A DNA stretch of 64,000 nucleotides from Ruegeria sp. HKCCA6707. Its GTDB lineage: Bacteria > Pseudomonadota > Alphaproteobacteria > Rhodobacterales > Rhodobacteraceae. The notes beneath the pieces are model-generated. The model ran no database searches and was not told the origin of the DNA. It saw only the letters and a list, made by a program, of their open reading frames with translations. The stretch is from NCBI RefSeq assembly GCF_013033515.1, contig NZ_WQEG01000003.1:430375-494374 (forward strand). Reading direction: 5' to 3'. Every line of letters starts with the position of its first letter. Positions within the stretch are counted from its first letter, which is position 1. Below are positions 47,515-63,806 of the stretch, piece after piece. The position numbers were made by a program, and so were the translations under genes.

Positions 47515-47815
47515 GTCGTAATTTCCTTAAAACTGCGGTCGCGCCCTGTACCGCATCTCAATACGCCATGGTACTTGCGACAAGCCTTATGGCTCTGCCA
47601 GCGATCATCGTGGTCGCCTTTAGGCTCGAAGCGGTCATTCGCCTGAATACCACGAGCGACCGCTCCGCGGATCTTCCGGACCTTCACCGCAGTTGCTCGA
47701 ATGTCCGGTTGCAGCGCATTTCATTACCCGCATCGGTAAGACCAAATGCGCAAGTTCTGGGTCGATTTCAGGTATCTCAGATGCAAGCCTGCAATCGCCA
47801 CTGAAAGTTGAGGGT
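47515..47815. other. Gene-free stretch with repeat copy E
   Basis: No gene. Holds repeat copy E (47616-47672) and the thioesterase leader. Confidence 0.45.
47616..47672 (+). repeat. 57-bp dispersed intergenic repeat, copy E
   Basis: Starts GCCTTTAGGCTCGAAGCGGTC-like and ends GCGGAT. GCGGTC and GACCGC inside can form a stem, as in copy A. Confidence 0.6.
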
Positions 47816-48226
47816 ATGGAATTGAATATCAGACAAAGACTGGCTGAGAATGAATGGAAGGGCGAAATCGGCTTCACCATTGAAAGCCGCGAGCCTGAAC
47901 GCGTGGTTGCCAGAATGCCGGTAACTGAAGCTGCAAAGAACCCGTTTGGAACGATGCACGCGGGCGCTTTGATCTGGTTTGCCGATATCGCAGCAACCTT
48001 GTGTGCCATCGGCGATCTGGACAGTATTGGTGAAGACGGGTCAGACTTTCCGCTCGCCGTTGATCTTCATACCGTGCTGTCGGGCAATGAAAAGGCAGGC
48101 GATCTGATTGCAACCTCCACAACGGTCAAACGCGGTGGCAAGCTCATTGTCATTCGCACCGAGGTTCGCGGAGAAACAGGGCGTCTGTTGATCGACATGA
48201 CAACCACGCATCTGCGCGCCGGTTGA
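47816..48226 (+). CDS. PaaI-family hotdog thioesterase
   Basis: A 136-residue single hotdog domain. The pattern NPFGTMHAGALIWFADIAAT and VDLHTVLSG, then GGKLIVIRTEV, fits PaaI-type acyl-CoA thioesterases, which work as tetramers. The start at 47816 begins MELNIRQRLAEN; the upstream frame extension runs through the repeat and is rejected. The substrate is unknown. It converges with the PLP decarboxylase. Confidence 0.82.
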   Translation: MELNIRQRLAENEWKGEIGFTIESREPERVVARMPVTEAAKNPFGTMHAGALIWFADIAATLCAIGDLDSIGEDGSDFPLAVDLHTVLSGNEKAGDLIATSTTVKRGGKLIVIRTEVRGETGRLLIDMTTTHLRAG

Positions 48227-48276
48227 CCAACTGGAAAGCACCCGCCCTTCTTGCGGCGGATGCATGTTTCCTTGCC

Positions 48277-49671
48277 TCAAACCGTCGTCAGAAATTCCGT
48301 CAACTGATCAATTATCGCTTCATCCGTACGTCCATTGGTGACGCAGGCCCGCAAAACCGGTTTGCCCTCGAACATCGCCTTGGAAATCCAGAAACGCCCA
48401 TCTTCGTGAACCGCATCGACATAGCGTTGCACGGCGTCGTGCCCTTCCGGCGGAACCATGCAGCTTACCCCCATGAGAGACTGGTTTGCCTTTGTCCAAC
48501 CCGCATTTCTAAGATTTTCCGTGAACCGGTTGGTCAGTCGGATGGTACGCTCGACATGGTCGCCGTAGCCGTCCCATCCGGCGGCACCAAGGGCGAGGAA
48601 CAGGCGCAATCCCACGAAGCGGCGTGACCACTGATTGGAATTCACATAGAAATCCTTGGCTGCCTCGCTTTCCGGCATGTAGCTGGCCGAGATACGGAAA
48701 ACCTGTGCGGGTATGTCGGGGCGCGAGGTCAGAAACATGCCTGCGCCCATCGTGGTGGCGAACCATTTGTGGGCGTCAATCGTGATCGAATCCGCTTGCT
48801 CAATGCCGTCCAGTGCGGTTCGCCGTTCGGTGCTGGCGATCATCGCCCCACCCCATGCCGCATCGACGTGAAACCACATACCATGCTCTCGCGCCAGAGC
48901 ACCGCAAGGTTTGAGGGGGTCGATCATCCCGGCATTCGTGGTGCCAGCCGTAGCTACGATCAGGACCGGGACACAACCGTTTTTCGAATCCTCATCAATG
49001 GCGGTCGCAAGACAACTTGCGTCCATCTGGCCTTGGCCGTCAGTTGCGATCAATCGAACGGCGTTGCGCCCGATGCCCGCCGATTGCGCCATCTTCAACC
49101 ATGCGAGATGGCTTTCCTTCGAAACGTAAATCGTTGGTTGGCCACCGAACTCATAGATGCCCTTGTCGCTGTACTCCGGGCATTTGGCCTGCAAGGCACA
49201 TAAAACAGCCGCCGAATTGGCCTCAGCCCCACCACTGGTAAAATGCCCCCCGGACCCCTTGGGAAGCCCGGCGCGCCTGGCCAGTTCATTGATGACATGC
49301 TGTTCAATTTCGACAGCGGCTGGCGCATGAGAATACACACAGATTTGCGGATTGAAGGCTGACGCGATCCGGTCGGCACATTCCGAGGCAAAGGTTGGCG
49401 CGGGATTGAACAGACCAAGATATCCCGGATGAGTCATCTGAACGCTGCCGACATCTAGTGCATTAATCACCCAATCCATCAGGGGTTCGAGTTCTTCTGC
49501 CTGATCAAACTGTTTGGATTTCAACTCTCCCAACCAGTCAGGCGTTAACTCAGCCGAGGTCGCCTTGCGATTGGCATAGTCGCGGCGTGCCTGGCTCAAG
49601 CGCTCGGTCAACGCGTTTTCCGCGTCTGTTATTTGGTCGAAATCCGGGAAGAGTGCGTCGCGTCCGTACAT
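48277..49671 (-). CDS. Group II PLP-dependent decarboxylase
   Basis: A 464-residue enzyme of the aromatic-L-amino-acid/diaminobutyrate/glutamate decarboxylase group. Markers are HFTSGGAEANSAAVLCAL (phosphate region), FHVDAAWGGAM (Asp270 pairing with the pyridine N) and the Schiff-base K302 in IDAHKWFAT. It releases CO2 from an amino acid to give an amine. The subgroup cannot be fixed from sequence; HPGYLGLFNPAP at residues 81-92 resembles the aromatic-amino-acid and related branch. No pathway partner adjacent. Confidence 0.86.
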   Translation of the reverse strand: MYGRDALFPDFDQITDAENALTERLSQARRDYANRKATSAELTPDWLGELKSKQFDQAEELEPLMDWVINALDVGSVQMTHPGYLGLFNPAPTFASECADRIASAFNPQICVYSHAPAAVEIEQHVINELARRAGLPKGSGGHFTSGGAEANSAAVLCALQAKCPEYSDKGIYEFGGQPTIYVSKESHLAWLKMAQSAGIGRNAVRLIATDGQGQMDASCLATAIDEDSKNGCVPVLIVATAGTTNAGMIDPLKPCGALAREHGMWFHVDAAWGGAMIASTERRTALDGIEQADSITIDAHKWFATTMGAGMFLTSRPDIPAQVFRISASYMPESEAAKDFYVNSNQWSRRFVGLRLFLALGAAGWDGYGDHVERTIRLTNRFTENLRNAGWTKANQSLMGVSCMVPPEGHDAVQRYVDAVHEDGRFWISKAMFEGKPVLRACVTNGRTDEAIIDQLTEFLTTV

Positions 49672-51158: not shown

Positions 51159-52460
51159 TCAAAACGCGAGTTCGGGCAGGAAAGTCGCGATTGACGGGAT
51201 GAGCAGGATCAAGATGAGGGTGATCACTTCCACCTGAAGGAACCACCAGATCCCACCAAAGATTTCTCTTAGCGAAAACGACGGTACGACCCCTTTCAGA
51301 ACAAAAGCGTTCAGTCCGACAGGTGGAGTGATCAGCCCGATCTCAAGTGTTTTGACGATCACGATGGCCAGCCAGATGGGATGCGCACCTAGTGCGACCA
51401 GCGGCGGCACGAAGATTGGCACCGTTAAGAACATGACCGAAACCGGATCCACCATACAACCGAGCACCAGCAAAAGCAGCACGTATATACAGACAATCCC
51501 CATCATTGGCATATCAAGCCCAATGATATGGGCCGACACTGCTCCGGACGCGCCACTGACCGCAAGATAGGATGAAAATATCAACGCCCCGACCAAGATG
51601 ATAAAGATCACAGAGGTTGTCTGCGCAGTATCGAGGAAGACTTCCCTCAACACAGAAAATGACAGCCGCTTGCGAAAGAGCGCGATCAGGAAGGCGCCGA
51701 CAGCCCCGATGGCTCCCGCTTCAGTTGGCGTAATGATACCGGCATAAATACCGCCGATGACGATACCGCCAAGGGCCAGAAAGCTCCAGACGCCCTTAAG
51801 CGAGTTTAACCGCTCCTCCATCGGCGCCTTCGGAAGTGCAGGCGCCATTTCTGGGTTCCGGCTTACGCGGATGTAGATCATTACCAGATAGGCAAAGGCC
51901 GTCAGCAAGCCCGGAACAATCCCCGCAATAAGCAGCTTGGGAATGGATTCGCGCGCGATGATTCCATAAACTATGAGGTTGATACTGGGAGGGATCATAC
52001 CAGCCAGCGTACCTACGGTGGCCACACATCCCGCAGCCAGCTTTCGGTTCACATTGAGCCGCAACATTTCAGGGATGGCAACGCGCCCGAACACGGCCGT
52101 CGAGGACGTGGTGGACCCCGAACAGGCGGCAAAGGCGACAGCTGCAACTGTGGTCGCAAATACCACGCTGCCCTTCAGGTGCCCCAACCAGGCCCTCGCG
52201 GCACGGTAGATGTCCTGCGTGATACCCGCCTTGGCCGCAACATGCCCCATAAGCAAAAAGAGCGGTACTGCGCTCAGCGCATAGCCCGACCCAATATCGA
52301 AGAGCCGCCCGCCAATGGTGTCGAGCGTTATCGGCATGCCACGAATGAAGGCAAAGCCCATGGCGCCCGACAACAACAGGGCAATCCCAACCGGGATACG
52401 CATGACCATCAAAACGACCACCATACCCAGCACAAAGGGCAACTGAAGCGCGTCCATCAT
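51159..52460 (-). CDS. dctM: TRAP transporter large permease DctM (system 1)
   Basis: A 433-residue inner-membrane protein with about 12 helices. TRAP-M signatures: VLMVMRIPVGIALLLSGAMG at the start, ACSGSTTSSTAVFGRVAIPEM, VGTLAGMIPPSINLIVYGI and ITPTEAGAIGAVGAFL. It forms the Na+-driven carrier with DctQ. The start overlaps the dctQ stop by four bases. Last gene of the dctP-dctQ-dctM operon; ligand unknown. Confidence 0.92.
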   Translation of the reverse strand: MMDALQLPFVLGMVVVLMVMRIPVGIALLLSGAMGFAFIRGMPITLDTIGGRLFDIGSGYALSAVPLFLLMGHVAAKAGITQDIYRAARAWLGHLKGSVVFATTVAAVAFAACSGSTTSSTAVFGRVAIPEMLRLNVNRKLAAGCVATVGTLAGMIPPSINLIVYGIIARESIPKLLIAGIVPGLLTAFAYLVMIYIRVSRNPEMAPALPKAPMEERLNSLKGVWSFLALGGIVIGGIYAGIITPTEAGAIGAVGAFLIALFRKRLSFSVLREVFLDTAQTTSVIFIILVGALIFSSYLAVSGASGAVSAHIIGLDMPMMGIVCIYVLLLLVLGCMVDPVSVMFLTVPIFVPPLVALGAHPIWLAIVIVKTLEIGLITPPVGLNAFVLKGVVPSFSLREIFGGIWWFLQVEVITLILILLIPSIATFLPELAF

Positions 52461-53020
52461 TTTGCTGTCTCTTCCTCTACGGTCTCTTGCAGGGCGGTCT
52501 CGCTTTCAGCAGCTTCTTCAAGCAGCAGGTCCTGAGTGATTAAATAATAGAGCTGAACCAAAAACCGGAGGGAGAGGAGCGCCAGCCCAACTGGAATTCC
52601 GGCACGCGCCCACCAGGTTTTAACTTCAATGATGCCAAGTACGGTGTCGCCCATGACATAGGCGCTGAAGGCCGACACAGCACTCGTCCAAGTCAGGGCA
52701 GAAAAGAAGAGGCATGCCACAAGCAGGTAAATCGCCTGGCTGGTTTTTCGCGCACCGCGTGGCAAATGGTCGTATAGAACGCCTACCGTGATATGGGCGT
52801 CACGTCGCTGGGAAAAGGCCAGGCCGAGATAGATCAGATAAACGAACATCAGGCTGACGTATTCATAGGACCCAGGCACGCTGATCTTGAAAATCCCCCT
52901 TGCCACAACCTCTAGCACGGTGATGGACATCATCGTCGCAACAGCCAGCGCCGAAAAATAACAAGCGATCTCTTCCAGCCTGCGTTGCAGCCCAATACCG
53001 CTGCTCACCGAATTCGGCAT
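52457..53020 (-). CDS. dctQ: TRAP transporter small permease DctQ (system 1)
   Basis: A 187-residue protein with four helices and the DctQ pattern (VLEVVARGIFKISVPGSYEYV, FSQRRDAHITVGVLYDHLP). The C-terminus is unusually acidic (EEAAESETALQETVEEETAK). The start at 53020 has a purine-rich GGGGGG stretch upstream; an in-frame start at 53065 is less likely. It is separated from dctP by a 188-base gap that contains a hairpin. Confidence 0.88.
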   Translation of the reverse strand: MPNSVSSGIGLQRRLEEIACYFSALAVATMMSITVLEVVARGIFKISVPGSYEYVSLMFVYLIYLGLAFSQRRDAHITVGVLYDHLPRGARKTSQAIYLLVACLFFSALTWTSAVSAFSAYVMGDTVLGIIEVKTWWARAGIPVGLALLSLRFLVQLYYLITQDLLLEEAAESETALQETVEEETAK

Positions 53021-53124
53021 CGTCGCCCCCCCCTTATGAACCGAGAAATCCGTTCGACCGCGCATGGCTCAGTTTATCCAAACTCATGTGCTTTCAGCTT
53101 ATTTCGCAATGTCTTATTATTGCT

Positions 53125-53162
53125 GCGCCGCCCACAACCTCCTCAGATGTGCCGGGCGGCGC
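53125..53162. terminator. Stem-loop between dctP and dctQ (system 1)
   Basis: GCGCCGCCC (53125-53133) pairs with GGGCGGCGC (53154-53162) around a 20-base loop. On the minus strand there is no U-run, so partial read-through into dctQM is expected. It lies 47 bases after the dctP stop. Confidence 0.6.
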
Positions 53163-53208
53163 TTTGTTTGTGTTCGGGTGTTGCCCCGGGTCTCAAACCG
53201 CAGAGCTT

Positions 53209-54225
53209 TCACCCACCATGCTTTTGGAGGATCACAAGGAAATCATCCAGAACCGCCTGACCCGGAAGACCTTCTGCTTCACGCGCATCCGCCCAACTCT
53301 GCCAGGTCGCGTCACGCACGGCATCCATCTTGGCCTGTTCAGCCGGCTCCAAGTTCACCACCTCTGTCAACCGATGTAATGCTTCTCGCGCCTCAATCTC
53401 TTCAGCCTCAAGAAGATTGCGCGCCTGCGCTACTGTTTCGTTGCCGACCTGTACCATCACCTCCTGCACGTCGGCTGGAAGTTCGTTCCATGTGTCAAGG
53501 TTGATAGATACCGGCATCGGGAAATAGAACCAGTCCACGTTGTCCCAGTAACTGAAGATTTCCCCGAAGCCAAAGGCATAGGCATCTGCAGGCGCTCCGA
53601 TGATTGCAGCTGTCACCACTTTGCGCTCCGCAGCTGCAGGCAGTTCGCCCCATGGGATTCCATAAACAGAAATATCCAGTTGTTTCAGAATTTCAGCGGC
53701 CCCACCATGGGCCCTTATCTTGGCCGCTTTTAGATCATCGATCGTACGAATGGGGTCGTGCGACAGTAGTTGAATGGAACCCCATTGACCCGGAAACAGG
53801 TACTTCTGGTTCATCGCGGTGAATTCAGCCTCGACCGCTGGAGTCTTGAAGAGTTCGTGCCCGGCTTGCGCGTGCGCCATCGGGTTGTCCGTCATGAATG
53901 GAAGCGATGTCACATTGGCCAGCGGAAAGATGCCCGGGTTATATACGGGTGAAAACTCTCCCATGTCGAAAGCGCCGACCTTGATGTTCTCCGGCTGGCC
54001 AGACAACTTGCCAAGCGGCCCGCCGAAGATCCGAGTGAATTTCACTTTGCCATCGGTGCGCTTCTCAACTTCATCCATGAACCATCGAGTCGCAAGGTTG
54101 GAAGGCCCTACTCCGGTAAAGGCATGGTACTTCAGGTCAATTTCCTCTGCCATGGAGGTTGCCGGTGCGGTCAAAGCTGTGACCGCGACAAGCGCGCTTG
54201 CAAACAGCGTTCTGAAGGATTTCAT
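53209..54225 (-). CDS. dctP: TRAP transporter substrate-binding protein DctP (system 1)
   Basis: A 338-residue periplasmic protein with a signal peptide (ending near TSMAEE). Residues fit the TRAP DctP family: YHAFTGVGPSNLATRWFMDEVEKRTDGKVKF, then LKAAKIRAHGGAAEI with the conserved ligand-binding Arg. It captures an organic acid anion for DctQM. An identical palindrome to those before the two-component and tautomerase genes lies 180 bases upstream. Confidence 0.9.
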   Translation of the reverse strand: MKSFRTLFASALVAVTALTAPATSMAEEIDLKYHAFTGVGPSNLATRWFMDEVEKRTDGKVKFTRIFGGPLGKLSGQPENIKVGAFDMGEFSPVYNPGIFPLANVTSLPFMTDNPMAHAQAGHELFKTPAVEAEFTAMNQKYLFPGQWGSIQLLSHDPIRTIDDLKAAKIRAHGGAAEILKQLDISVYGIPWGELPAAAERKVVTAAIIGAPADAYAFGFGEIFSYWDNVDWFYFPMPVSINLDTWNELPADVQEVMVQVGNETVAQARNLLEAEEIEAREALHRLTEVVNLEPAEQAKMDAVRDATWQSWADAREAEGLPGQAVLDDFLVILQKHGG

Positions 54226-54404
54226 CTTAGTCTCTCTCCCTATCGTAGTTTCTTAGTCAAATACTGAGGCCGCTGGCCCCTTCAGGCATACCTGCGTTCA
54301 AACGCTAAATTCCTCCCTTCAGGTCGTTTCGCGCTCTTCACGCTTCCTGTCGATTGATACCGCCGTAAACCAATCCATTTGTACCGGGGATCGCGCTTTG
54401 AGTT

Positions 54405-54418
54405 TGCGGGAACCCGCA
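54405..54418. promoter_or_regulatory. Palindrome TGCGGGAACCCGCA, site 1 (upstream of dctP)
   Basis: A 6-bp inverted repeat with AA in the middle, identical to sites 2 and 3. It lies between the OsmC gene and dctP, about 180 bases upstream of dctP. Candidate operator of the response regulator at 56.4 kb. Confidence 0.6.
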
Positions 54419-54456
54419 GCATTGACGGGTACATCCGCAGCAACGTCCTTGGACAC

Positions 54457-54912
54457 CTACTTTCGCACCCAACTCTCTTGAATCTGGCAGCCCGCGCGGC
54501 GCAACAGAACGGAAACAGGACATTTCTCACCTGTCATTCGCTGCAATTCTGCGATCTGTTCGTCGCCCACATCGGTGTCGAGAACCACTCGCAGTTCAAT
54601 GACTGGAAAGGGCGACGCAATCTCGGCCTTACCAAATACACCTCGAGTATCGAAGTGGCCGCAAACCGACATTTCCATGCCACGCAGTTCGATCTTCAAC
54701 AGACCGGCCACGTAGTTCGCGATCACATTTGTACAGCCTAGAAAGGAAGACAGCATCGTTTCCAGCGGTGTCGCAAAGAGATTGGTGCCGCCACGTTCCG
54801 GTGGCTCATCGGTGTTAACGACCTTACCACGCGCCACCATCTCTGTGCGGGCATGTGTGATTGCGTGACCTAGCACATCAATCTTGAACAGATCTGGCAT
54901 CACATGTGCCAT
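54457..54912 (-). CDS. OsmC/Ohr-family peroxiredoxin-like protein
   Basis: A 151-residue OsmC fold protein. C60 in SSFLGCTNVIANY and C131 in GEKCPVSVLL are the redox pair of the family. GGTNLFATPLETMLSSF corresponds to the usual GGxxxGxxPxExLL. The start has AAGGAG six bases upstream. It should reduce organic hydroperoxides, although some OsmC proteins in catabolic loci have other roles. It lies between the SMP-30 gene and dctP on the same strand. Confidence 0.85.
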   Translation of the reverse strand: MAHVMPDLFKIDVLGHAITHARTEMVARGKVVNTDEPPERGGTNLFATPLETMLSSFLGCTNVIANYVAGLLKIELRGMEMSVCGHFDTRGVFGKAEIASPFPVIELRVVLDTDVGDEQIAELQRMTGEKCPVSVLLRRAGCQIQESWVRK

Positions 54913-55121
54913 AAACTTCTCCTTATTTCCGAATTTCGATGCTTAACAAGCACCATGAACTTGAATGAATCCGTGAATTGTACTTTCAGATCTTCCGGCG
55001 CGGCGCGCTCCAAAGATCATCCGGCAACAGATGCCGCGACCACGTTTTGGGAGGATACGATCCCAGACATCTGTGCCGGATGTCGGACAGTCACCCGTCC
55101 GTTATCTTGTCGAGCTAGAGA

Positions 55122-56012
55122 CTAGAACAGCGCTAGTCCCGGCGTTTTGACCGCAATGCGATAGATCGACGTGGACGAGGTGAAATAGAGATCCGTCAAG
55201 TCATCACCCCCCCAGGCAAAATTTGCTGTGAACTCTGCCATGCGGATTACGCCCAGTGTCTCCCCGTCCGGCGTAATCACGTGGACTCCACCAGGACCAG
55301 TGCAATACACGTTGCCCTTGCTGTCGATCTTCATTCCATCCGGGTGGCCGTCGCCCTCCCCGACTGTCACCTCGACCCAAACGTCCCCGCCTGTAACGGA
55401 GCCGTCTTCAGCAACCTCAAACCTGCGGATGTGTTTGTGCTCGGTGTCGTTGACGTAAAGCGTATTGTGATCGAGCGAAAAACAAAGCCCATTGGGCTGG
55501 GCGAAATCATCGGCGATCCGCGTGATTGTTCCACCATCGGGTGTCAAACAATAGACACCCTGCGCACCCATCTCCGGTTCGCGTATCACGCCGTAGTATT
55601 CCATGCGCCCATAAGTCGGGTCAGTAAAGAAGATCAATCCATCGCGGCGTGCCACTAAGTCATTCGGGCTATTTAACTCTTTGCCTTCATAGTGCGTAGC
55701 AAGGGTAGTAATGGTCCCGTCTAGTTCAGTGCGGGTGACAGAGCTGGTGGCATGGTGGCATGTCAACATCCGGCCTTTGTGGTCGTATGTGTTCCCGTTA
55801 CCCATATCACTCGGCTTGCGAAACGACGTCACATTGCCATTTGCATCCATGCGAAACATCTCGTTTCCTGGAATATCCGAGAACGTTAGATGTGCTTCCA
55901 CCGGATGCCAGATTGGACCTTCGGTAAAGAGAAACCCCTCCGCAACTTTCTCGAGGGTCGCTTCAGCATCTACGATGTCGTGCATCCCATAATTCCGAAC
56001 CTCGACACTCAT
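55122..56012 (-). CDS. SMP-30/gluconolactonase-family lactonase
   Basis: A 296-residue six-bladed beta-propeller. Family marks: LFTEGPIWHPVEAHLTFSDI with the metal-ligand Glu, NSPNDLVARRDGLIFFTDPTYG with the Asn ligand, FAQPNGLCFSLDHNTLYVND, and DGHPDGMKIDSKGNVYC with the catalytic-type Asp. It should hydrolyse a sugar or other lactone. Its ATG overlaps the tautomerase stop by four bases, so the two are translated together. No signal peptide, so cytoplasmic. Confidence 0.88.
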   Translation of the reverse strand: MSVEVRNYGMHDIVDAEATLEKVAEGFLFTEGPIWHPVEAHLTFSDIPGNEMFRMDANGNVTSFRKPSDMGNGNTYDHKGRMLTCHHATSSVTRTELDGTITTLATHYEGKELNSPNDLVARRDGLIFFTDPTYGRMEYYGVIREPEMGAQGVYCLTPDGGTITRIADDFAQPNGLCFSLDHNTLYVNDTEHKHIRRFEVAEDGSVTGGDVWVEVTVGEGDGHPDGMKIDSKGNVYCTGPGGVHVITPDGETLGVIRMAEFTANFAWGGDDLTDLYFTSSTSIYRIAVKTPGLALF

Positions 56013-56218
56013 GACTCGGCCCGGAGTTCTTTCACGCGTTGACCACCCGCAAACCAATCCGTCTCATCGACTTCCTCGAAGGTTACCCAAACATTTTCTT
56101 TCGGAATTCCTGCGGACTCAGCAATTGACTCCGTCACTGAGGTTTGCACCCTAGATTTTATCCCTTCAGGGTCACGCTCAATAACTTGCTTCACGATGCG
56201 AATATTGACAAACGGCAT
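56009..56218 (-). CDS. 4-oxalocrotonate tautomerase-family protein
   Basis: A 69-residue tautomerase. The start at 56218 is fixed by GGGAGG six bases upstream and gives MPFVNIRIV, leaving catalytic Pro at the N-terminus after Met removal. The ATG at 56224 would bury that Pro and is rejected. Members tautomerise 2-hydroxymuconate or similar enols. Paired with the lactonase gene, it suggests catabolism of a ring-derived or lactone acid imported by the nearby TRAP system. Confidence 0.87.
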   Translation of the reverse strand: MPFVNIRIVKQVIERDPEGIKSRVQTSVTESIAESAGIPKENVWVTFEEVDETDWFAGGQRVKELRAES

Positions 56219-56349
56219 CGACATCCTCCCTTGCGATCAAAGCCCTATGCTACCGACCTCGCAGGTCGTGTGAGAACAACGGTAGATCACCGGGAAGCGG
56301 CAGTATGCGTCGGCTTACGCAGGAATTGAGCGGACACCCACAAGAAAGC

Positions 56350-56363
56350 TGCGGGTTCCCGCA
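56350..56363. promoter_or_regulatory. Palindrome TGCGGGTTCCCGCA, site 2 (upstream of tautomerase)
   Basis: Same 14-bp palindrome, reading TGCGGGAACCCGCA on the minus strand. It lies 132 bases upstream of the tautomerase start and just past the response-regulator stop. Confidence 0.6.
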
Positions 56364-56381
56364 ACACAACGGCAGGGACGT

Positions 56382-57113
56382 TTACTTCAGATGACGCCCG
56401 GTCCAAACGCGGAGGTTTTCTTCCTCTTTGCGCAACGCGTCCGCGTTTAAGATGCCTTGGCTTAATGCAAGACATATGGCCCGTGTACGAGAGTTATAGG
56501 TTGGTCCCCACTGGCCCACGGGAATATCGCCTTTGTCCAAACCAAGTTTCTGATAAAGATGCTGCAGCCGGCTCTGGGCACCTCGCAAGGATACATTGCG
56601 CCGCGCAGCCATCGCCTTGTCCGTCAGACCTAAGCAGAGGTCGACCAGCGCTTCGTATTCCGGCTCGCTCAGCCCAGAAAGCCGATCTCCCGCCCTCTGT
56701 TGTACCCTGCGTACCTCACGGTCGATTACGCATTGCTCGGCAACAAAAACCCCTTGCATAGCTAATTTCAGCTGTTCTGCCGGAGCGGATTTGAGGATAT
56801 AGCCATAGACAGAGGCGCCGGGAACGATCTTAGTGATCCCACGAATATAAGCTTCGTCGGTGTAGTTTGACCAAAACAGAATCTTGGTGCATGGCTTCTT
56901 GGCCCAGATATTTTTGGCTACTTCAACCCCTGTAAGACGCGGCATCTGCAAATCCAGTACCACTGACTCATATTCGGCCGCGTCAAATTCCTTGATAGCT
57001 TCCTCACCATCTTCAGCTATCTTCAAAAAGCTCAGATCCGACAAAGTGTTCAGTGCCACTTTCTCCAAAAATGCTCGGTGTAACTTGTCGTCTTCTGCAA
57101 TTAGGAGGCGCAT
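56382..57113 (-). CDS. NarL/LuxR-type response regulator
   Basis: A 243-residue regulator. The receiver domain starts MRLLIAEDDKLHR (acidic pocket E7/D8/D9) with phospho-acceptor D54 in VVLDLQMPR and Lys in YILKSAPAEQL. A GerE/LuxR-type HTH follows (LTDKAMAARRNVSLRGAQSRLQHLYQKLGL), then about 50 extra residues after the HTH. The start at 57113 is preferred over an in-frame ATG at 57161. It lies 28 bases after the histidine-kinase stop, forming one operon. Likely binder of the TGCGGG-AA-CCCGCA palindrome. Confidence 0.88.
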   Translation of the reverse strand: MRLLIAEDDKLHRAFLEKVALNTLSDLSFLKIAEDGEEAIKEFDAAEYESVVLDLQMPRLTGVEVAKNIWAKKPCTKILFWSNYTDEAYIRGITKIVPGASVYGYILKSAPAEQLKLAMQGVFVAEQCVIDREVRRVQQRAGDRLSGLSEPEYEALVDLCLGLTDKAMAARRNVSLRGAQSRLQHLYQKLGLDKGDIPVGQWGPTYNSRTRAICLALSQGILNADALRKEEENLRVWTGRHLK

Positions 57114-57141
57114 GGTAGATCCCGCAGCTTTGAGAATTTGA

Positions 57142-58383
57142 TCATAGTACGAGCGCCTCACCGACAGTCTTGCCGGCGCTCAGTGGTACGGTAATTCTTA
57201 CGCGAGTGCCCTTCTGATCCTTCAGTCGTTCAAACGATACCTTGGCAGATATCAGATCAGCCCGAGTTTTGATATTACTGATCCCACTGTTCGAACGCAG
57301 ATCAGACTCGGAAATACCAGTGCCGCTGTCGTCAATTGTCACAACCATTTCGCCACCAACCTTTACGATCCAAACATCAAGTGAATCACATTCTGCGTGT
57401 TTCAGGGCATTATTCACGGCTTCCTGTACGATCCTAAACACCGCCGTGCGAACTGTGTCTTGCAGGGTATCCATTTGGGCGTCCGATAAGTCCCGCACTC
57501 GCATTGCTATCTCACGTCGCATGTGCTTTTGGCATCGCTGCAAGTGCGCTTCGACGGCTTCGGAAAAACCAAACATCTGTAGTACGCCGGGCTTCATATT
57601 TTCGACAATACCTCGAACCTCGTCCAGACAATGGTCCAACTCATCCTGCAGGTCGTCAATCTCCTTCTGCGCCGCCGCTGAACCTCCATCAATCCGCGAC
57701 ATGCGCCTACGTATTCGCGCGAGATCAGCCAGCGTCTGATCATGCAGGTCCATGCCAAGGCGTTGCCTTTCGCGTTCTATACCTTCGGTAAGCCGCAGCG
57801 CTCCAAGCCGAAGTGCTTGTTCACGCCCAGTCGCCTCCAGTTCGGCGATAGCGGACTCTTTGGCTTCCTTGCCCCGCTCAAGCGCAAAAAGGTAGGCCGA
57901 TACCAGGTCTGCTGCCCCTTGCGCTAATACCAAGAGCTCTTCATCATAAAAATCCGTCTTGTGGCTGGAAATCGCGAGCGATCCAATCAACTCACCTTGA
58001 ACCCGCAAGGGTACAACGATCCGGCTGTGCAGATTTGCATCAAAAAGGGGTTTGCTGTCTGACCCTTCAAAATGAAACCGCGGGTCGGTCCACGCGTCGT
58101 GGGTCAGGATATAGGGCGTGTCACCGCGCAGCACATCGCGGATCGGACTTTCAGTAGTCGGCTTCGCTGGGTTTTGGGTGTGACTCCACGAGGTATGTAA
58201 ACGCGCCTCATAGCATATTTGTGTGCCAGATGGGTGCAGCAAAACAATATCGAGATGGTCGTGGGAAATCAGTGTACGCAGACGATTGGCAAAGTTCTCC
58301 AACACCAAGTCGTACTCAGTTTGACCGGCGATCGCTTGCGCAATCGACAGATAACAGTGAAGAGCCTCGTCAGCATTTGGCAT
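57142..58383 (-). CDS. GAF-domain sensor histidine kinase (NreB/NarX-like, HisKA_3)
   Basis: About 413 residues without membrane segments. Residues 1-175 are a GAF sensor domain (VLENFANRLRTLI ... LHSRIVVPLRVQGELIGSLAI). HisKA_3 carries the phospho-His in RERQRLGMDLHDQTLADLARI. The ATPase part shows QEAVNNALKHAECD (N box), VTIDDSGTGIS (G1) and SGISNIKTRADLI (G2). It probably detects a soluble cytoplasmic signal. ATG 58383 is used; the open frame continues to a TTG at 58458, so the N-terminus is uncertain. Confidence 0.85.
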   Translation of the reverse strand: MPNADEALHCYLSIAQAIAGQTEYDLVLENFANRLRTLISHDHLDIVLLHPSGTQICYEARLHTSWSHTQNPAKPTTESPIRDVLRGDTPYILTHDAWTDPRFHFEGSDSKPLFDANLHSRIVVPLRVQGELIGSLAISSHKTDFYDEELLVLAQGAADLVSAYLFALERGKEAKESAIAELEATGREQALRLGALRLTEGIERERQRLGMDLHDQTLADLARIRRRMSRIDGGSAAAQKEIDDLQDELDHCLDEVRGIVENMKPGVLQMFGFSEAVEAHLQRCQKHMRREIAMRVRDLSDAQMDTLQDTVRTAVFRIVQEAVNNALKHAECDSLDVWIVKVGGEMVVTIDDSGTGISESDLRSNSGISNIKTRADLISAKVSFERLKDQKGTRVRITVPLSAGKTVGEALVL

Positions 58384-58665
58384 TGATGCCGAAAATCCCT
58401 CTGCCGATACCTTTGGTTGATGATAGCCTATTTTCCGTTTCAATCTAACCTCGTGCAATCCCGGCTTTCATGTTCTCGAAAGGCACGACATCGACTCGAA
58501 CTGGAGATCAGGGCAATGGCCTTAGACTTTCGATGTTGGTGTCCACGCCAGGGCTTCGCCCGAATGCCTTTGGCGATCGAGAAAAGTTTTGTACCTTCAG
58601 AGGACTTAGCTTTTAAGTATGCCGCACATCGATCACTCGGCAAATTGTCAAGACCGCAACGTTTT

Positions 58666-58679
58666 TGCGGGAACCCGCA
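58666..58679. promoter_or_regulatory. Palindrome TGCGGGAACCCGCA, site 3 (upstream of the kinase)
   Basis: Identical to sites 1 and 2. It lies about 210-280 bases upstream of the kinase gene, depending on its start, and 134 bases before the small plus-strand ORF, so autoregulation of the two-component system is plausible. Confidence 0.6.
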
Positions 58680-59169: not shown

Positions 59170-59913
59170 TCACGAAAACAGCATACCTCCGTTGATGTCG
59201 ATGTTGGTGCCGGTCATGAAAGCGCTGTCTTCGGTTGCGAGGAACACCACAAGATTGGCTGCATCGTCCACGTGCCCTTGCCGCTTGAGCGGCGCATTGG
59301 CTTCGAAGCCGCGCCGCCCGGCATCTGGTGTGTGGATATTGTGAAAATCCGTATCGATCATGCCGGGGCATAAGGCATTGACGCGAATGTCCGGCCCCAG
59401 TTCCTTTGCCAAGCCACGGGTCATCGTCATGACAGCGCCTTTGGCCGTGGCATAGGCGACGGCGCCTGGTCCTCCGCCGTCGCGCCCGGCCTGACTTGCG
59501 ATGTTGACGATCACGCCTGATGTCATGTGCGCGAGGCACGCCTTGGTCATCAGAAACGTGCTGGTCAGGTTCAGCGTCATGACCGCGTTCCAGTGCTCAA
59601 GCTCCATCTCCGCCACTGTCTTGCGGGCGATCAGACCCCCGGCGTTATTGACGAGGATGTTCAGGCCGCCGAAGGTCTCAACTGTTTTTGACACCAAGGC
59701 CTGGACCGCTGCGGGGTCATTCAGATCACCCTGCACGGCGATGGCATGCCCACCGTTTGCTTCAATCTCCGCGACGAGTGCCTCGGCACTCCTGGAACTC
59801 GCAAAGTAGTTGATCACGAGACTCGCCCCTTGCTCGGCAAGCTTGCGTGCGACGGCTGCACCGATGTCACGCCCCCCGCCTGTGACAATTGCGGTCTGAC
59901 CTGCAAGTTTCAT
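59170..59913 (-). CDS. SDR-family oxidoreductase
   Basis: A 247-residue classical short-chain dehydrogenase. Cofactor motif TGGGRDIG (Asp in place of the usual Gly/Ala), NNAG, catalytic Ser in NIASQAGRDG and YATAK (Tyr-x3-Lys), then CPGMIDTDF. It starts 46 bases after dctM of TRAP system 2 on the same strand, so it should oxidise the imported hydroxy acid or sugar derivative. An Asn follows VI in the second strand (SLVINYFAS), compatible with NADP(H) or NAD(H). Confidence 0.88.
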   Translation of the reverse strand: MKLAGQTAIVTGGGRDIGAAVARKLAEQGASLVINYFASSRSAEALVAEIEANGGHAIAVQGDLNDPAAVQALVSKTVETFGGLNILVNNAGGLIARKTVAEMELEHWNAVMTLNLTSTFLMTKACLAHMTSGVIVNIASQAGRDGGGPGAVAYATAKGAVMTMTRGLAKELGPDIRVNALCPGMIDTDFHNIHTPDAGRRGFEANAPLKRQGHVDDAANLVVFLATEDSAFMTGTNIDINGGMLFS

Positions 59914-59959
59914 GAGTGTCTCCGATAGATTTGGGCAGGCGTGCCTGCGATTTCGTATG

Positions 59960-61270
59960 TCAGGGAAAGGCCGCCGGCATCAAGAGACGTGGCAACCAAA
60001 GTATGATGTCAGGGAAGGCCGCGAGCAGCACAAGGATCGCGAGCATCGGTGCCAGGATGACGGCCACTTCGCGCAACACCCGCACGACATTCAGCCCTCC
60101 AATGGCCGATGCGATCAAGAGACAAAGGCCATAGGGTGGCGTCACCAGTCCAAATGCCAAAGAGACAATGCCGATGATGGCAAAGGCAATCGGGTCAAGC
60201 CCTCCGGCTTGAGCGACCGGCATCAAAACCGTACCCAGAATGATGATGGTCGGGATCGCGTCGATGAAAAGGCCGAAAATGAGGAACAGCGCCGCAATCA
60301 CAAGGGCCGTCCCGAACGGTCCAAACTCCCACGCCGTCAGCATCGCCACGATCATGCGCGGTGCGTTATAGAACGACAGAAGCCATCCAAAAGCCGTTGC
60401 CGTGCCAATGGCAAACAGCGAAATCGCCGCAAAGCGTGCCGTGTCGTAAAGAATGAAGCCAAGATCTCGCGGCCTGACTGTGCGATACACAAACATGCCA
60501 AGGATCAGCGCATATCCTGCAGCAATAATTGCGCTCTCCGTGGGTGTCACGATCCCGCCAACGATGCCACCGATCACGAAAACCGGTGTCAGCAGCGCAA
60601 GTGCCGCACCTTTCCATGCCGCAGAAAACTCGGCCCAATTTGGAACAGCATTCACAGGATATCCCCGCACTTTGGCAAAGCCGTAAACCGTTCCGATCAA
60701 AGCAAGTCCGATCATCAGGCCTGGCACCGCGCCCCCGAGGAACAAGGCCCCGACAGACACCTGCATCACCCCCCCCCAAACGATCATCAGGATCGAGGGC
60801 GGAATGATAACGCCCATCACCGACGAACAGGCTGTAATCGCGACGGCAAAGCGGGTGTCATAGCCTTCGCGCTGCATGGCCGGGATCAGGATTTTCCCGA
60901 TACCTGCGGCGTCGGCTGTTGAAGACCCCGAGATGCCCGCAAACAGCATCGACACCGCCACATTCACATGGCCCAGCCCGCCCGGCATCCAGCCCGTCAG
61001 AACGCGGGCCAGTTCGATCAGACGATCGGTCACCTTTCCCGAATTCATCAGGTTTGCGGCCAGCAGAAAGAACGGAACGGCCAGGAGGATGAAGGAGTTA
61101 TAGGATTGGAACATCCGATCCAGCACAATGAACGGCGTCAGGCGCAACTCCAGCAGCACGACCGGGACCGTGGCCAGGCCAAGCGCAAAAGCGACTGGGA
61201 TTCTAATGATGACAAGAACCAGAAAGGCCGAAACCAACATCAGGCACGCGGTGGCGGTCTCAAGTATCAT
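59960..61270 (-). CDS. dctM: TRAP transporter large permease DctM (system 2)
   Basis: A 436-residue membrane protein with about 12 helices. TRAP-M hallmarks: IRIPVAFALGLATVPV, MLFAGISGSSTADAAGIGKI, ACSSVMGVIIPPSILMIVWG, IVTPTESAIIAAGYAL and LVTPPYGLCLLIASAIGG. The start MILETATA (61270) overlaps the dctQ stop by four bases. It is distinct in sequence from DctM of system 1, so a different ligand is likely. Confidence 0.92.
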   Translation of the reverse strand: MILETATACLMLVSAFLVLVIIRIPVAFALGLATVPVVLLELRLTPFIVLDRMFQSYNSFILLAVPFFLLAANLMNSGKVTDRLIELARVLTGWMPGGLGHVNVAVSMLFAGISGSSTADAAGIGKILIPAMQREGYDTRFAVAITACSSVMGVIIPPSILMIVWGGVMQVSVGALFLGGAVPGLMIGLALIGTVYGFAKVRGYPVNAVPNWAEFSAAWKGAALALLTPVFVIGGIVGGIVTPTESAIIAAGYALILGMFVYRTVRPRDLGFILYDTARFAAISLFAIGTATAFGWLLSFYNAPRMIVAMLTAWEFGPFGTALVIAALFLIFGLFIDAIPTIIILGTVLMPVAQAGGLDPIAFAIIGIVSLAFGLVTPPYGLCLLIASAIGGLNVVRVLREVAVILAPMLAILVLLAAFPDIILWLPRLLMPAAFP

Positions 61271-61758
61271 CCCGCGCTCCTCGCGTGTCTGTATTCTGTA
61301 AAGCATTCAACCAGGCGATACACGGAGAGGATTGCCCAGAGCGTTCCGACAATCGAAAGCGAGATGTGCGTGATGACAAGGTTGGCCCGCATCATGACCG
61401 AGCGCTGCTTCGCTCCGAACTCGGCGTATTCAACGCCGTAGACGGCAAACATCAGTCCAAATAGAAGAATGGAGAGATACACGATTCCTTTCTGCAGGAG
61501 CTTCAGTATAGGCCGCTCGGCGTCCGGGATCACCCGCACGTCGAAATGCGTGCCGTCCCATACTGCAACAACAGACCCGATCATCACGATCCAGATAAAG
61601 ATGAAAGTGGCGAGTTCCTCGGTCCAAAGAAACGTCGGAATGATGCCTGTGTAGCGAGAGATCACCTGCATCGCGACCGGGATCGCAAGGATCCCCATCA
61701 GGAGACCAAGCAGGAAACGAAGACCGGTGCAAAACCGATCCAGAAGCTGTCCGATCAT
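61267..61758 (-). CDS. dctQ: TRAP transporter small permease DctQ (system 2)
   Basis: A 163-residue protein with four helices and the DctQ pattern (MQVISRYTGIIPTFLWTEELATFIFIW, then WDGTHFDVRVIPD). It starts 84 bases after the dctP stop; that gap contains a GC-rich stem-loop. Confidence 0.9.
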   Translation of the reverse strand: MIGQLLDRFCTGLRFLLGLLMGILAIPVAMQVISRYTGIIPTFLWTEELATFIFIWIVMIGSVVAVWDGTHFDVRVIPDAERPILKLLQKGIVYLSILLFGLMFAVYGVEYAEFGAKQRSVMMRANLVITHISLSIVGTLWAILSVYRLVECFTEYRHARSAG

Positions 61759-61800
61759 AGCTTTGTCCTAAATGGAGACATGGGAGTGATGTGCCACAAA

Positions 61801-61830
61801 GGCGCAGGCGCAGACCAGCGGCCCGCGCCC
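61801..61830. terminator. GC-rich stem-loop between dctP and dctQ (system 2)
   Basis: GGCGCAGG pairs with CCCGCGCC across about 14 bases with one mismatch, 13 bases past the dctP stop. Weaker than the hairpins of the liv and TRAP 1 operons. Confidence 0.4.
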
Positions 61831-61842
61831 GCAGGGAGGAGA

Positions 61843-62826
61843 TTACATGCCCCGGATTTCCTCCAGAAGCTCGGTCGCCCCGAGGCTTGCGGCATAATCA
61901 TCCTGAACAGGTTTCACGAGTTCCAGCATCTTCTCACGCCCTTCGAATTCGTGAATTTCGATCTGGCCCGCGTCGGCCATTTCCTGAAGGATTTTTCCGT
62001 CGGCACTGCTCTCAAGGTCACGACCGAAGGCCCCCGCCTCGGCACCTGCTTCCATGATCGCGGCCTGAAGGTCTTCGGGCAGCGCATCGAACGTCTTGGC
62101 CGACATCACGATGGGGCGCACGGTGATCGTATGCTGCGTCAAGGAAATATGCGGCGAAACCTCATAGAACTTCAGGTTCTGGATAGAAGCCGCTTCGTTT
62201 TCAAAACCGGCGATCACGCCGGTCTGAATGGCGTTGTAGACCTCGTTATATGCAATCGCTGAGGGTGCCGCGCCGACAGCATCGAATGTTTGCGCCTGAA
62301 TAGGTGCACCCATCACCCGCATCCGGTGGCCTGCAAGCTCTTCCATATTGGTGATTGGCTCAGCAGAGGCCAGGTTGCGCACGCCGCCACCGTGATACCC
62401 GATGATCACGATACCTGCGGCTTCCCGCAGATCGTCCTCCAGCGGTGCCAGTACATTCGAGGATAGAACGGCATTCCAATGATCCAGATCGCGGAAAAGG
62501 AATGGCATGTCCATCAGCGGGATGGACTCCGAAAAAACCGCCATGTTCGAGGGCGCAAGGATCGTATAGTCGACCGCCACACCCTGGTTCAGGTAGGTGA
62601 CGTAGTCGCTTTCGACGCCGAGTTCGCCATTCAGGCGCAGGTCGAACGAAACATCGCCATCATACTTTTCGCCAACCAGGCGTTCGAACTCGCGCATCGT
62701 CTTGGTGAAGGCATGTTCTTCATCAAACATGCTGGCACCCTTGAGCGTGGTCTGTGCCTGCACGATTGACACACCGCCCACAAACATCGCGGCGACAGCC
62801 ACAGCTTTAAGTGAAAAATTGAGCAT
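61843..62826 (-). CDS. dctP: TRAP transporter substrate-binding protein DctP (system 2)
   Basis: A 327-residue periplasmic protein with a signal peptide ending near VQAQ. The DctP marks are MPFLFRDLDHWNAVL, MEELAGHRMRVMGAPI with the ligand-binding Arg, NEVYNAIQTGVIAGFENE and VSPHISLTQH. It resembles the family branch binding sugar acids. It is the first gene of the dctP-dctQ-dctM-SDR operon and stands divergent to the GntR regulator. Confidence 0.9.
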   Translation of the reverse strand: MLNFSLKAVAVAAMFVGGVSIVQAQTTLKGASMFDEEHAFTKTMREFERLVGEKYDGDVSFDLRLNGELGVESDYVTYLNQGVAVDYTILAPSNMAVFSESIPLMDMPFLFRDLDHWNAVLSSNVLAPLEDDLREAAGIVIIGYHGGGVRNLASAEPITNMEELAGHRMRVMGAPIQAQTFDAVGAAPSAIAYNEVYNAIQTGVIAGFENEAASIQNLKFYEVSPHISLTQHTITVRPIVMSAKTFDALPEDLQAAIMEAGAEAGAFGRDLESSADGKILQEMADAGQIEIHEFEGREKMLELVKPVQDDYAASLGATELLEEIRGM

Positions 62827-62958
62827 GGTTTCCTCCCATTTTGCTCCCTATCCCAGACGCTCCCCCGGCTAGATCGGACCGTCTGTTCCCGGCTTCGAAG
62901 AGACGCGGTCCACGCCCGTAACGAACCCAAGATGAATGTCTCGGATAGGACGCCAAAA

Positions 62959-62970
62959 CTTGTATACTAG
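62959..62970. promoter_or_regulatory. Candidate GntR operator CTTGTATACTAG
   Basis: A near-palindrome 133 bases upstream of dctP (system 2). Read on the opposite strand it resembles the second copy at 63050. It fits the TNGTNNNACNA-like sites of FCD-type GntR regulators. Confidence 0.5.
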
Positions 62971-63049
62971 TCAACCTGAATCGAAGAAGATTATTTATTG
63001 CCATAAAAACATAAGATTAACTCAGACCTCTTGCGATGCCTAGGAAATG

Positions 63050-63061
63050 CTTGCATACAAG
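63050..63061. promoter_or_regulatory. Candidate GntR operator CTTGCATACAAG
   Basis: A perfect-arm palindrome (CTTG/CAAG) 65 bases upstream of the GntR gene. With the copy at 62959 the shared form is CTTGYATACWAG; centres are 91 bases apart, which would allow looping. Confidence 0.5.
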
Positions 63062-63125
63062 ATACGAAGAGAAACTGAGCGTTGTGGCGCAGCGGAACGC
63101 ACAGAATCGCGCAAGAAGGAACGAT

Positions 63126-63806
63126 ATGGCACTCTCAAATGTTGCTGAGCGCACGACAAGCACTGACCTCATCTTCGATTCTCTTTACGAGCGAATTGTC
63201 AGCCTTGAACTGTTGCCCGGAACAAAGATCTCCGAAACGGAAGTTGCCAAATCCCTGGGGTATTCGCGCCAACCGGTCCGAGAGGCATTTACGCGGCTCG
63301 CGAACTTGAACCTTCTTCTGATCCGACCTCAGCGTGCCACGCTCGTTCGACCGTTTTCCTTGGAACTCATTGCAGACGCGCGGTTCATGCGACTGGCGAT
63401 CGAATTGGAGGTCGTCCGACAAGCGGCGGCAATCCCTGTTCCGGGAGCCGTCAAGAAACTGCGATCCAGCATTAAGGCACAACGCGAAGCGGTGAACACC
63501 GGCGATACGCAGGCCTTCCATGATTTGGATTATGAATTCCACAAGCTGATGTGCGAGGCAGCGGGCCGGCCTGCAGCATTTCAAATCATTTCCGAAAACA
63601 AAGCTCAGGTGGATCGCCTCTGTGTGCTGTCGCTAACGAGCCCGGAAACGATGGAAACGCTCTTCGCAGATCACGTCGCCATTTTGGAGGCCATGATGGA
63701 TCATAACGCCTTAAGGGCCGAAGAGGTTCTTCGTCAGCACCTAAGCCGGCTCGATCCGGTTATCGACGCGATCTACACAACGCACCGCGCATATTTCGAA
63801 CATTAG
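63126..63806 (+). CDS. GntR-family regulator, FCD (FadR-type) subfamily
   Basis: A 226-residue repressor-type regulator. The N-terminal winged helix has LIFDSLYERIVSLELLPGTKISE, then EVAKSLGYSRQPVREAFTRL. The FCD ligand domain shows the metal-binding pattern Asp/His in HDLDYEFHKLMCEAAG, ADHVAILEAMMDHN and LRQHLSRL. Start 63126 has AGAAGGA upstream; the frame is open to 63036. It should respond to the TRAP 2 substrate or its oxidation product and control the divergent operon. Confidence 0.9.
   Translation: MALSNVAERTTSTDLIFDSLYERIVSLELLPGTKISETEVAKSLGYSRQPVREAFTRLANLNLLLIRPQRATLVRPFSLELIADARFMRLAIELEVVRQAAAIPVPGAVKKLRSSIKAQREAVNTGDTQAFHDLDYEFHKLMCEAAGRPAAFQIISENKAQVDRLCVLSLTSPETMETLFADHVAILEAMMDHNALRAEEVLRQHLSRLDPVIDAIYTTHRAYFEH

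Follow-up and report, generated by a model that had tools for sequence, protein, structure and literature searches.

Several described systems share part of their design with the locus analyzed here. According to PMC7419079 and PMC4549865, a NarL site is made of two 7-mers in inverted orientation, separated by 2 bp, and such sites occur singly or in tandem. As in E. coli NarX/NarL, our locus combines a HisKA_3 kinase, a predicted NarL-type regulator and an inverted repeat around 2 bp, found as single or tandem promoter sites. It differs from NarX/NarL in its GC-rich TGCGGG arms, its 21-bp spacing and its GAF kinase, in the insert predicted within the DNA-binding domain, and in putative targets that belong to catabolism instead of respiration. 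Rhizobial MctS/MctR and RpuS/RpuR, which control the MctP importer, place an acid importer under an adjacent LuxR-family two-component system, as is proposed here, according to PMC9100948; there, unlike here, RpuS is an SLC5/STAC kinase and the promoter motif of RpuS/RpuR forms an imperfect direct repeat. MctS and MctR are also the nearest named NCBIfam models to our two proteins, which stay outside these families with 56.7 of 300 and 81.5 of 700 bits, far below the cut-offs. In Pseudomonas aeruginosa, GtrS/GltR responds to a sugar acid, 2-ketogluconate in that case, and controls sugar transport and catabolism, similarly to what we propose below; by contrast the GltR operator is tgGTTTTTc, and phosphorylation relieves the repression that GltR exerts (PMC4081096). 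EupR of Chromohalobacter salexigens is a NarL/FixJ regulator that governs uptake of an organic solute, but it serves ectoine uptake and the salt response, with a hybrid kinase bearing a transmembrane sensor part (PMC2964678). Finally, one operator set joins a TRAP importer to a predicted sugar lactonase under Halomonas AraR2, and another joins a COG3386 lactonase to galactonate genes under DgoR; these regulons depend on AraR2 and DgoR, unlike the system here, and the terms "two-component" and "response regulator" are absent from the consulted portion of PMC5507952.

The window, i.e. the whole 64,000-nucleotide stretch of DNA that was analyzed, contains three exact copies of the 14-mer TGCGGGWWCCCGCA (Table 1). 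The first-pass annotation had reported identical, intergenic 14-mers at 54405, 56350 and 58666, each 130-290 bases upstream of an operon, and had judged them unexpected by chance. Both statements hold. All three copies are intergenic and upstream of minus-strand starts, at 131 bp from the likely start codon of the tautomerase (ATG 56218), 179 bp from that of DctP (ATG 54225) and 282 bp from that of the kinase (ATG 58383). About 0.11 copies are expected from the base composition of the window, and the backward-read pattern, taken as a genome-wide control, has 0 copies. The assignment of the 56350 copy to the inverse strand is correct for its AA/TT centre only, since the arms are symmetric.

Table 1. 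Putative operators, weaker copies and genes of the locus (positions in the window).
Feature	Positions	Strand	Evidence
Palindrome (putative operator) before kinase-regulator operon	58666..58679	(-)	exact TGCGGGWWCCCGCA; at most 1 mismatch in 15/16 assessable close loci
Weaker copy TGCGGTCTTGACAA	58645..58658	(-)	21 bp downstream of kinase-side palindrome; 6/12 letters; best offset +21 over 15 loci
Sensor kinase	57142..58383	(-)	GAF, HisKA_3, HATPase_c domains; start set at ATG 58383 to agree with relatives (tblastn)
Response regulator	56382..57113	(-)	receiver domain (Pfam Response_reg, PF00072); predicted NarL/LuxR-type DNA-binding domain with insert
Palindrome (putative operator) before tautomerase-lactonase-OsmC run	56350..56363	(-)	exact copy; at most 1 mismatch in 15/16 close loci with tautomerase
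Weaker copy TGTGGGTGTCCGCT	56329..56342	(-)	21 bp downstream of tautomerase-side palindrome; 9/12 letters
Third, wider copy TGCGTAAGCCGACGCA	56306..56321	(-)	42 bp downstream of tautomerase-side palindrome; TGCG...aCGcA columns kept in 15-locus alignment
4-oxalocrotonate-type tautomerase	56009..56218	(-)	Pfam PF01361; conserved ATG-CC start in alignment
SMP-30/gluconolactonase-like lactonase	55122..56012	(-)	Pfam PF08450, 172 bits; nearest solved chains 3e5z, 3dr2
OsmC-like protein	54457..54912	(-)	Pfam PF02566; in 15/18 close loci
Weaker copy TGCGGATGTACCCG	54426..54439	(-)	21 bp upstream of dctP palindrome; 13-locus alignment; offset -21 ranks third
Palindrome (putative operator) before dctPQM	54405..54418	(-)	exact copy; at most 1 mismatch in 13/13 close loci with dctP
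Weaker copy AGCGCGATCCCCGG	54384..54397	(-)	21 bp downstream of dctP palindrome; GGCG.GATCCCCcGT nearly invariant in 13-locus alignment; best offset +21
DctP, TRAP solute receptor	53209..54225	(-)	Pfam PF03480; NCBIfam TRAP_S1 over cut-off
DctQ, TRAP small permease	52457..53065	(-)	Pfam PF04290
DctM, TRAP large permease	51159..52460	(-)	Pfam PF06808; NCBIfam TIGR00786 over cut-off

Weaker copies of the palindrome, overlooked in the first-pass annotation, lie 21 bp from the main site at all three promoters. At the position of the weaker copy 21 bp from the tautomerase-side palindrome, four relatives (L043, L044, L045 and L048) align a near-perfect copy. Copies at 21 bp are present in every locus group, with a signal above that of 200/200 flank shuffles, a test in which 2 of the 15 distant loci count twice because each has a pair of sites at this distance. 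Neither the single site of Arenibaculum nor that of G451 has a partner at exactly 21 bp. A sigma-70 scan of the region was uninformative (3 matches against 3.3 expected).

The kinase exceeds the cut-offs of PF07730, PF02518 and PF01590, as a HisKA_3-type sensor kinase does, and Pfam detected no membrane part in it. In the response regulator, the receiver-domain residues D8, D54 and K108 are invariant in 35 aligned sequences. No LuxR/GerE domain was matched by Pfam even at E 1, yet alignments to ChrA, DevR and NarL extend to residues 192-194 and thus include the DNA-binding part. A structure model of the regulator places helices at 150-160, 165-172, 176-189 and 208-218, with the insert between the last two. 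This model resembles NarL/LuxR-type regulators: its top Foldseek matches are of this family and include LiaR, VraR, NarL and DNA-bound RcsB, with poor superpositions (TM 0.3-0.6, whole chain). A close paralogue of the kinase-regulator pair is found in this genome, on C25. Among the putative targets, the tautomerase start leaves Pro as residue 2, and the lactonase, a 296-aa form as in most relatives, has the SGL beta-propeller and is predicted to hydrolyze sugar lactones. The link of OsmC to the palindromes, proposed in the first-pass annotation, goes through the tautomerase-lactonase-OsmC run; the gene has no palindrome of its own. Receptor, small permease and large permease all exceed their Pfam cut-offs, as in a TRAP importer. 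Among solved receptors, searched for a hint of the ligand, DctP gave distant matches only (best E 1.2e-28).

The association of site and regulator was then considered among relatives. Exact copies occur in 17 of the 20 family genomes that have a homologue of the response regulator, compared to 9 of the 275 without (295 genomes, Fisher p 1.9e-18). A homologue was defined by at least 41% identity over at least 94 residues among at most nine candidates scored per genome; G147, a contig-end fragment, is included, and G018, whose match spans 61 residues at 49% and which lacks an exact site, is left out. In the regulator-bearing genomes, 20/20 exact copies are no more than 3.1 kb away from the regulator gene. 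Only this search started from the site. The close and distant loci discussed below were picked by the regulator, so that its presence there is circular. In the 18 close loci (the window, L034-L049 and L094; L095 repeats L044, and the contigs of L035, L042 and L044 also appear as G257, G218 and G232), 43 of the 45 promoters that could be assessed carry the site with one mismatch or none, kinase-side counts omitting L039 and L041, which are cut by contig ends. The palindrome is thus present before orthologous operons, as the first-pass annotation had asked to be checked. One copy lies outside promoters in about 225 kb of close loci. Locus L047 has no site and L046 has two mismatches before the tautomerase gene. 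The 15 distant loci, of which L084 is cut by a contig end, contain 18 copies at the expected place and one outside. In four other alphaproteobacterial families, all seven regulator-bearing genomes found have the site. In Azospirillum the sole form present is an altered one that has three mismatches, and no site was found with the regulator homologues of an acidobacterium and of cyanobacteria.

The kinase, the response regulator and the SMP-30 lactonase recur at these loci, together with an importer whose type changes: TRAP in this genome, sugar ABC or LIV-type ABC in relatives. Among the 15 distant loci, 14 have a sugar ABC ATPase and 13 a recognised SMP-30 protein. The names given to the sugar ABC families (F3, F11, F12) and to the LIV-type ABC come from similarity and from reading, and Pfam confirmed one receptor each from L093 and L040 and one permease. 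The solved chain nearest to the CUT2 receptor, 4pe6, is named merely "putative ABC transporter". The operator appears to be older than the TRAP version it has in this genome. DgoK genes join 9 of the 18 close loci and KDPGal aldolase genes 4 of 18, which indicates a sugar acid or lactone. The substrate or signal is therefore probably of this class, a narrower proposal than the organic acid of the first-pass annotation. A De Ley-Doudoroff (galactonate) regulon would have this operator before both DgoK and KDPGal aldolase, an arrangement seen in part in some relatives only and not here.

In this genome the palindrome is confined to the upstream regions of three adjacent operons, and in several bacterial families it accompanies relatives of the kinase-regulator pair, which makes it a likely docking site of the response regulator. 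We find it likely that the palindromes are operators of this regulator, each bound as a dimer aided by the weaker copies 21 bp away, and that three operons are switched on by a probable sugar acid or lactone. The GAF kinase would detect the ligand inside the cell and phosphorylate D54 of the regulator, whose NarL-type domains would then come together in pairs along the array of operators next to the promoter. Activation is predicted rather than repression: the kinase-regulator operon, the tautomerase-lactonase-OsmC operon and the TRAP importer would be turned on, and uptake, lactone opening and regulator synthesis would increase together. GltR, also a two-component regulator tied to a sugar acid, is a precedent for the opposite direction of control. 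The compact regulon suggested in the first-pass annotation is thus supported, with no exact copies elsewhere in the genome and the site kept at orthologous promoters.

The palindromes might instead be RNA hairpins, terminators or processing sites, that end the preceding genes. The 56350 copy, 18 bp past the regulator stop, does have a terminator-like score with a T-rich tail, and the region has 12 terminator-like matches against 4.9 expected, but the other two copies are not among these 12. We dropped this reading, which is hardly credible, because the genes that flank the site in the distant group and the other families are transcribed divergently, which leaves no transcript to be ended there, and the alignments show no conserved T-run behind the palindrome; hairpins would also give no reason for copies at exactly 21 bp. 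That a different regulator, encoded elsewhere, binds the palindromes and has the two-component pair merely as one target would agree with the site at the kinase-regulator operon itself, and the C25 pair, with its one-mismatch site, could share or compete for the operators. This is nevertheless improbable, given that exact copies follow the regulator among genomes and, in carriers, always adjoin it. No other predicted regulator recurs at the loci, which also counts against it; the GntR protein of the window matches just 2 of 23 loci, weakly.

With control by the adjacent regulator retained, the substrate could still be a non-sugar organic or keto acid, which we regard as rather unlikely. Of the 18 close loci, 16 also have a 4-oxalocrotonate-type tautomerase, TRAP receptors accept many organic acids and the solved receptors that DctP matches are distant, and the two DgoK genes of this genome lie elsewhere, on C11 and C12, with no operator copy there in the exact and one-mismatch counts. 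Opposed to this are the DgoK and KDPGal aldolase genes of close loci and the relatives in which the same operator and regulator accompany CUT2 sugar ABC transporters and SMP-30.

Opinion is evenly balanced, in our view, on a broader proposal: an undescribed, old alphaproteobacterial sugar-lactone two-component regulon. Its GAF kinase would sense the lactone or its acid intracellularly, and the DNA-binding domain of its NarL-type regulator would contain an insert. The regulon would use one 7-2-7-like operator, mostly in 21-bp-phased arrays, in at least five families, the SMP-30 lactonase being retained while the importer is exchanged (CUT2 sugar ABC, LIV-type ABC, TRAP). In the open-licence literature we found analogues only, no description of this regulon and no printed occurrence of the 14-mer. 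In marine Rhodobacteraceae there are, to our knowledge, few two-component systems for which the operator, the set of targets and the likely class of ligand are all known. The present one offers a 14-bp putative operator, three promoters and a likely ligand class in testable form, and ligands of the receptor and of the lactonase can be screened. For orphan TRAP and sugar ABC importers, a regulator-operator pair that keeps its lactonase while the importer changes would also help in substrate prediction.

Further targets in this genome were sought by counting the 14-mer genome-wide, as the first-pass annotation had recommended. There is no fourth exact copy in the 4,537,988 bp. With one mismatch and any centre, 10 further places were found against 25 for the backward control, so that one-mismatch copies alone mean nothing; all 10 fall within open frames that are 100 or more codons long, and further targets were rejected. 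Only the place at the start of the paralogous kinase gene (C25, L161) has a good 21-bp partner (8/12 letters), and it is the sole one-mismatch place that looks real.

The 14-mer palindrome TGCGGGAACCCGCA lies at 54405, 56350 and 58666, with one copy ahead of each of three gene runs: kinase-regulator, tautomerase-lactonase-OsmC and dctPQM. The distances to the likely start codons are 282, 131 and 179 bp respectively. The tautomerase start is most likely the ATG at 56218 and not 56224; proline is then the first residue once methionine is removed, as 4-OT-type enzymes need. Beyond dctM (47693-49671), reading of the translations identified a thioesterase-like ORF on the plus strand and a pyridoxal-dependent decarboxylase-like ORF on the minus strand. 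On the other side, an SDR oxidoreductase and a second TRAP set (59170-62826, minus; the TRAP set named by reading of translations), with a divergent GntR/FCD regulator (63036-63806, plus), form a separate acid-use unit (59170-63806) which has no operator.

Genes of the proposed regulon in the window
Feature	Position	Strand
GAF-HisKA_3-HATPase_c kinase	57142-58383	minus
Response regulator	56382-57113	minus
Tautomerase	56009-56218	minus
SMP-30 lactonase	55122-56012	minus
OsmC	54457-54912	minus
TRAP dctPQM	51159-54225	minus

The three copies reported by the first-pass annotation were borne out, and they are the only exact ones: TGCGGGWWCCCGCA has 3 matches in the entire 4,537,988-bp genome, all in the window; about 0.11 are predicted genome-wide from base composition, and the same pattern read backward has none. 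With one mismatch and any centre, 10 additional places were counted genome-wide, fewer than the 25 of the backward control. Each of the 10 is inside an open frame of 100 codons or more. A good partner copy (a weaker repeat of the palindrome) at a distance of 21 bp accompanies just one of them, the one at the start of a paralogous kinase gene (contig C25). A one-mismatch copy at 62416 is inside the second TRAP receptor gene.

The distribution of the site in related loci was analyzed in 45 loci gathered via the regulator. Sixteen from Rhodobacteraceae (regulator 63-89% identical), together with the window and one from genome G210 (L094), make up 18 close loci. Those holding dctP (13/18) retain the order kinase, regulator, site, tautomerase, lactonase, OsmC, site, dctPQM. 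At the orthologous promoters the palindrome, with no more than one mismatch, is present on the kinase side (15 of 16 assessable), before tautomerase (15/16) and before dctP (13/13); 43 sites are within promoter windows vs 1 outside in about 225 kb. L047 (66%), which is a second system of the isolate that also has L038, lacks a site as well as any match to tautomerase, lactonase, OsmC or dctP. In Phaeobacter sp. J2-8 the regulator gene (L049:8001-8710) is split over two frames, by a frameshift or an assembly error; the sites of this locus are intact. In a distant group of 15 further family loci (regulator identity 41-50%), all 15 carry the kinase-side site with no more than one mismatch; beyond it is a CUT2 sugar ABC operon in divergent orientation in 14, and an SMP-30 gene is also present in 13. 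Here 18 sites are inside the kinase-side window vs 1 outside in about 233 kb.

Because these loci were collected by the regulator, finding it in them is uninformative; an unbiased comparison has to start from the site and search the genomes. A regulator homologue (at least 41%) occurs in 20 of 295 genomes of the family, one being a contig-end fragment. The exact site was found in 17 of these 20 carriers vs 9 of the 275 other genomes (Fisher p = 1.9e-18, a guide only because related genomes are not independent). The 17 carriers hold 20 exact sites, all at most 3.1 kb from the regulator gene by coordinates, and the other three (G263, G026, G106) have one-mismatch sites. An ORF of 150 aa or more overlaps eight of the 9 stray exact sites.

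Further copies were sought in the 75 bp either side of every site, with flanks shuffled 200 times as control and partners scored over 12 letters. An offset of +21 scores best at the tautomerase (7.5/12), dctP (7.9/12) and kinase (5.5/12) promoters, the mean over offsets being 3.1-3.2; in the distant group -21 ranks first, followed by +21. Each best value exceeds all 200 shuffles. Taken by themselves, the three sites of the window give +21 as well (7.3; maximum of the shuffles 6.7), and the tautomerase alignment has a near-perfect copy in second position in four loci (L043, L044, L045, L048). The lone sites of Arenibaculum and genome G451 count against this phasing, as they have no partner at exactly 21 bp, whereas the best partner in genome G309 is at -21. 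Dimers on one DNA face, two helical turns apart, would be the natural reading of this spacing.

The site has the layout TTGCGGG-WW-CCCGCA, with A next in many copies. NarL is described as binding two 7-base elements as an inverted repeat around 2 bp, single or in tandem (PMC7419079, PMC4549865). The predicted structure of the regulator (mean pLDDT 81, pTM 0.56) shows a receiver together with a set of LuxR-like helices. Its best solved-structure matches are LiaR, VraR, spr1814, ChrA, FixJ, NarL and DNA-bound RcsB, the superposition over the whole chain being weak, and sequence alignments to ChrA, DevR and NarL reach into the DNA-binding part. Pfam detects no LuxR domain in the regulator; the model places an insert of about 15-18 residues (around 190-207) between the last two helices of the DNA-binding domain, which may be the reason. 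The nearest family models for the kinase-regulator pair are MctS/MctR, with scores far below cut-offs. No second predicted regulator recurs at the loci, the window's GntR protein matching weakly in 2 of 23. Systems in which a NarL-type two-component pair controls an importer are already known as a kind; a literature search of searchable papers found no description of this regulon and operator.

The comparative tests support the regulon proposed by the first-pass annotation and give it a wider reach than claimed. Class-wide searches of 240 and 385 genomes (partly overlapping) and a family search of 23 genomes found the regulator in seven genomes of four other families; in all seven, a site with no more than one mismatch lies next to the kinase and regulator. 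In one of these families (four genomes) a site of this kind precedes the sugar ABC operon; another, differing at one or two positions, separates the kinase from a divergent SMP-30 gene. Among Azospirillaceae, a site is found ahead of a sugar-receptor gene in Arenibaculum (TGTGGGATCCCGCA, one mismatch) and in Azospirillum (TGTGGGAATCCACA, three mismatches, spotted by eye among ties). No site was found with acidobacterial and cyanobacterial regulator homologues.

The recurring partners of regulator and site are an SMP-30 lactonase and an importer, which is TRAP in 13 of the 18 close loci, LIV-type ABC in L046 and L048 (named by reading), and CUT2 sugar ABC in L040, the distant group and other-family loci; the regulator tree requires more than one importer change. 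Among relatives, 9 of the 18 close loci hold a DgoK gene, either next to the kinase or after dctM, and 4 hold a KDPGal aldolase gene; three of the DgoK proteins exceed the PF05035 cut-off and one aldolase exceeds that of NF006600. This suggests that the substrate is a sugar acid or sugar lactone. Galactonate is one candidate; against it, both DgoK genes of the strain's own genome are located elsewhere, without operator. They belong to two DgoK-KDPGal aldolase loci apart from the regulon, L123 (C12) and L124 (C11), each with further SMP-30-like matches.

The distant group includes a paralogous system of the same genome (L093, C25:339901-356611), with a kinase-regulator pair, SMP-30 and a CUT2 sugar ABC operon in divergent orientation; its operator has one mismatch and a 21-bp partner. 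With two related systems in one cell, operators could be shared or discriminated. In Cognatishimia maritima (L034:1848-5454), the regulon adjoins genes which by eye resemble plasmid partition and replication genes, and may therefore be on its own replicon there.
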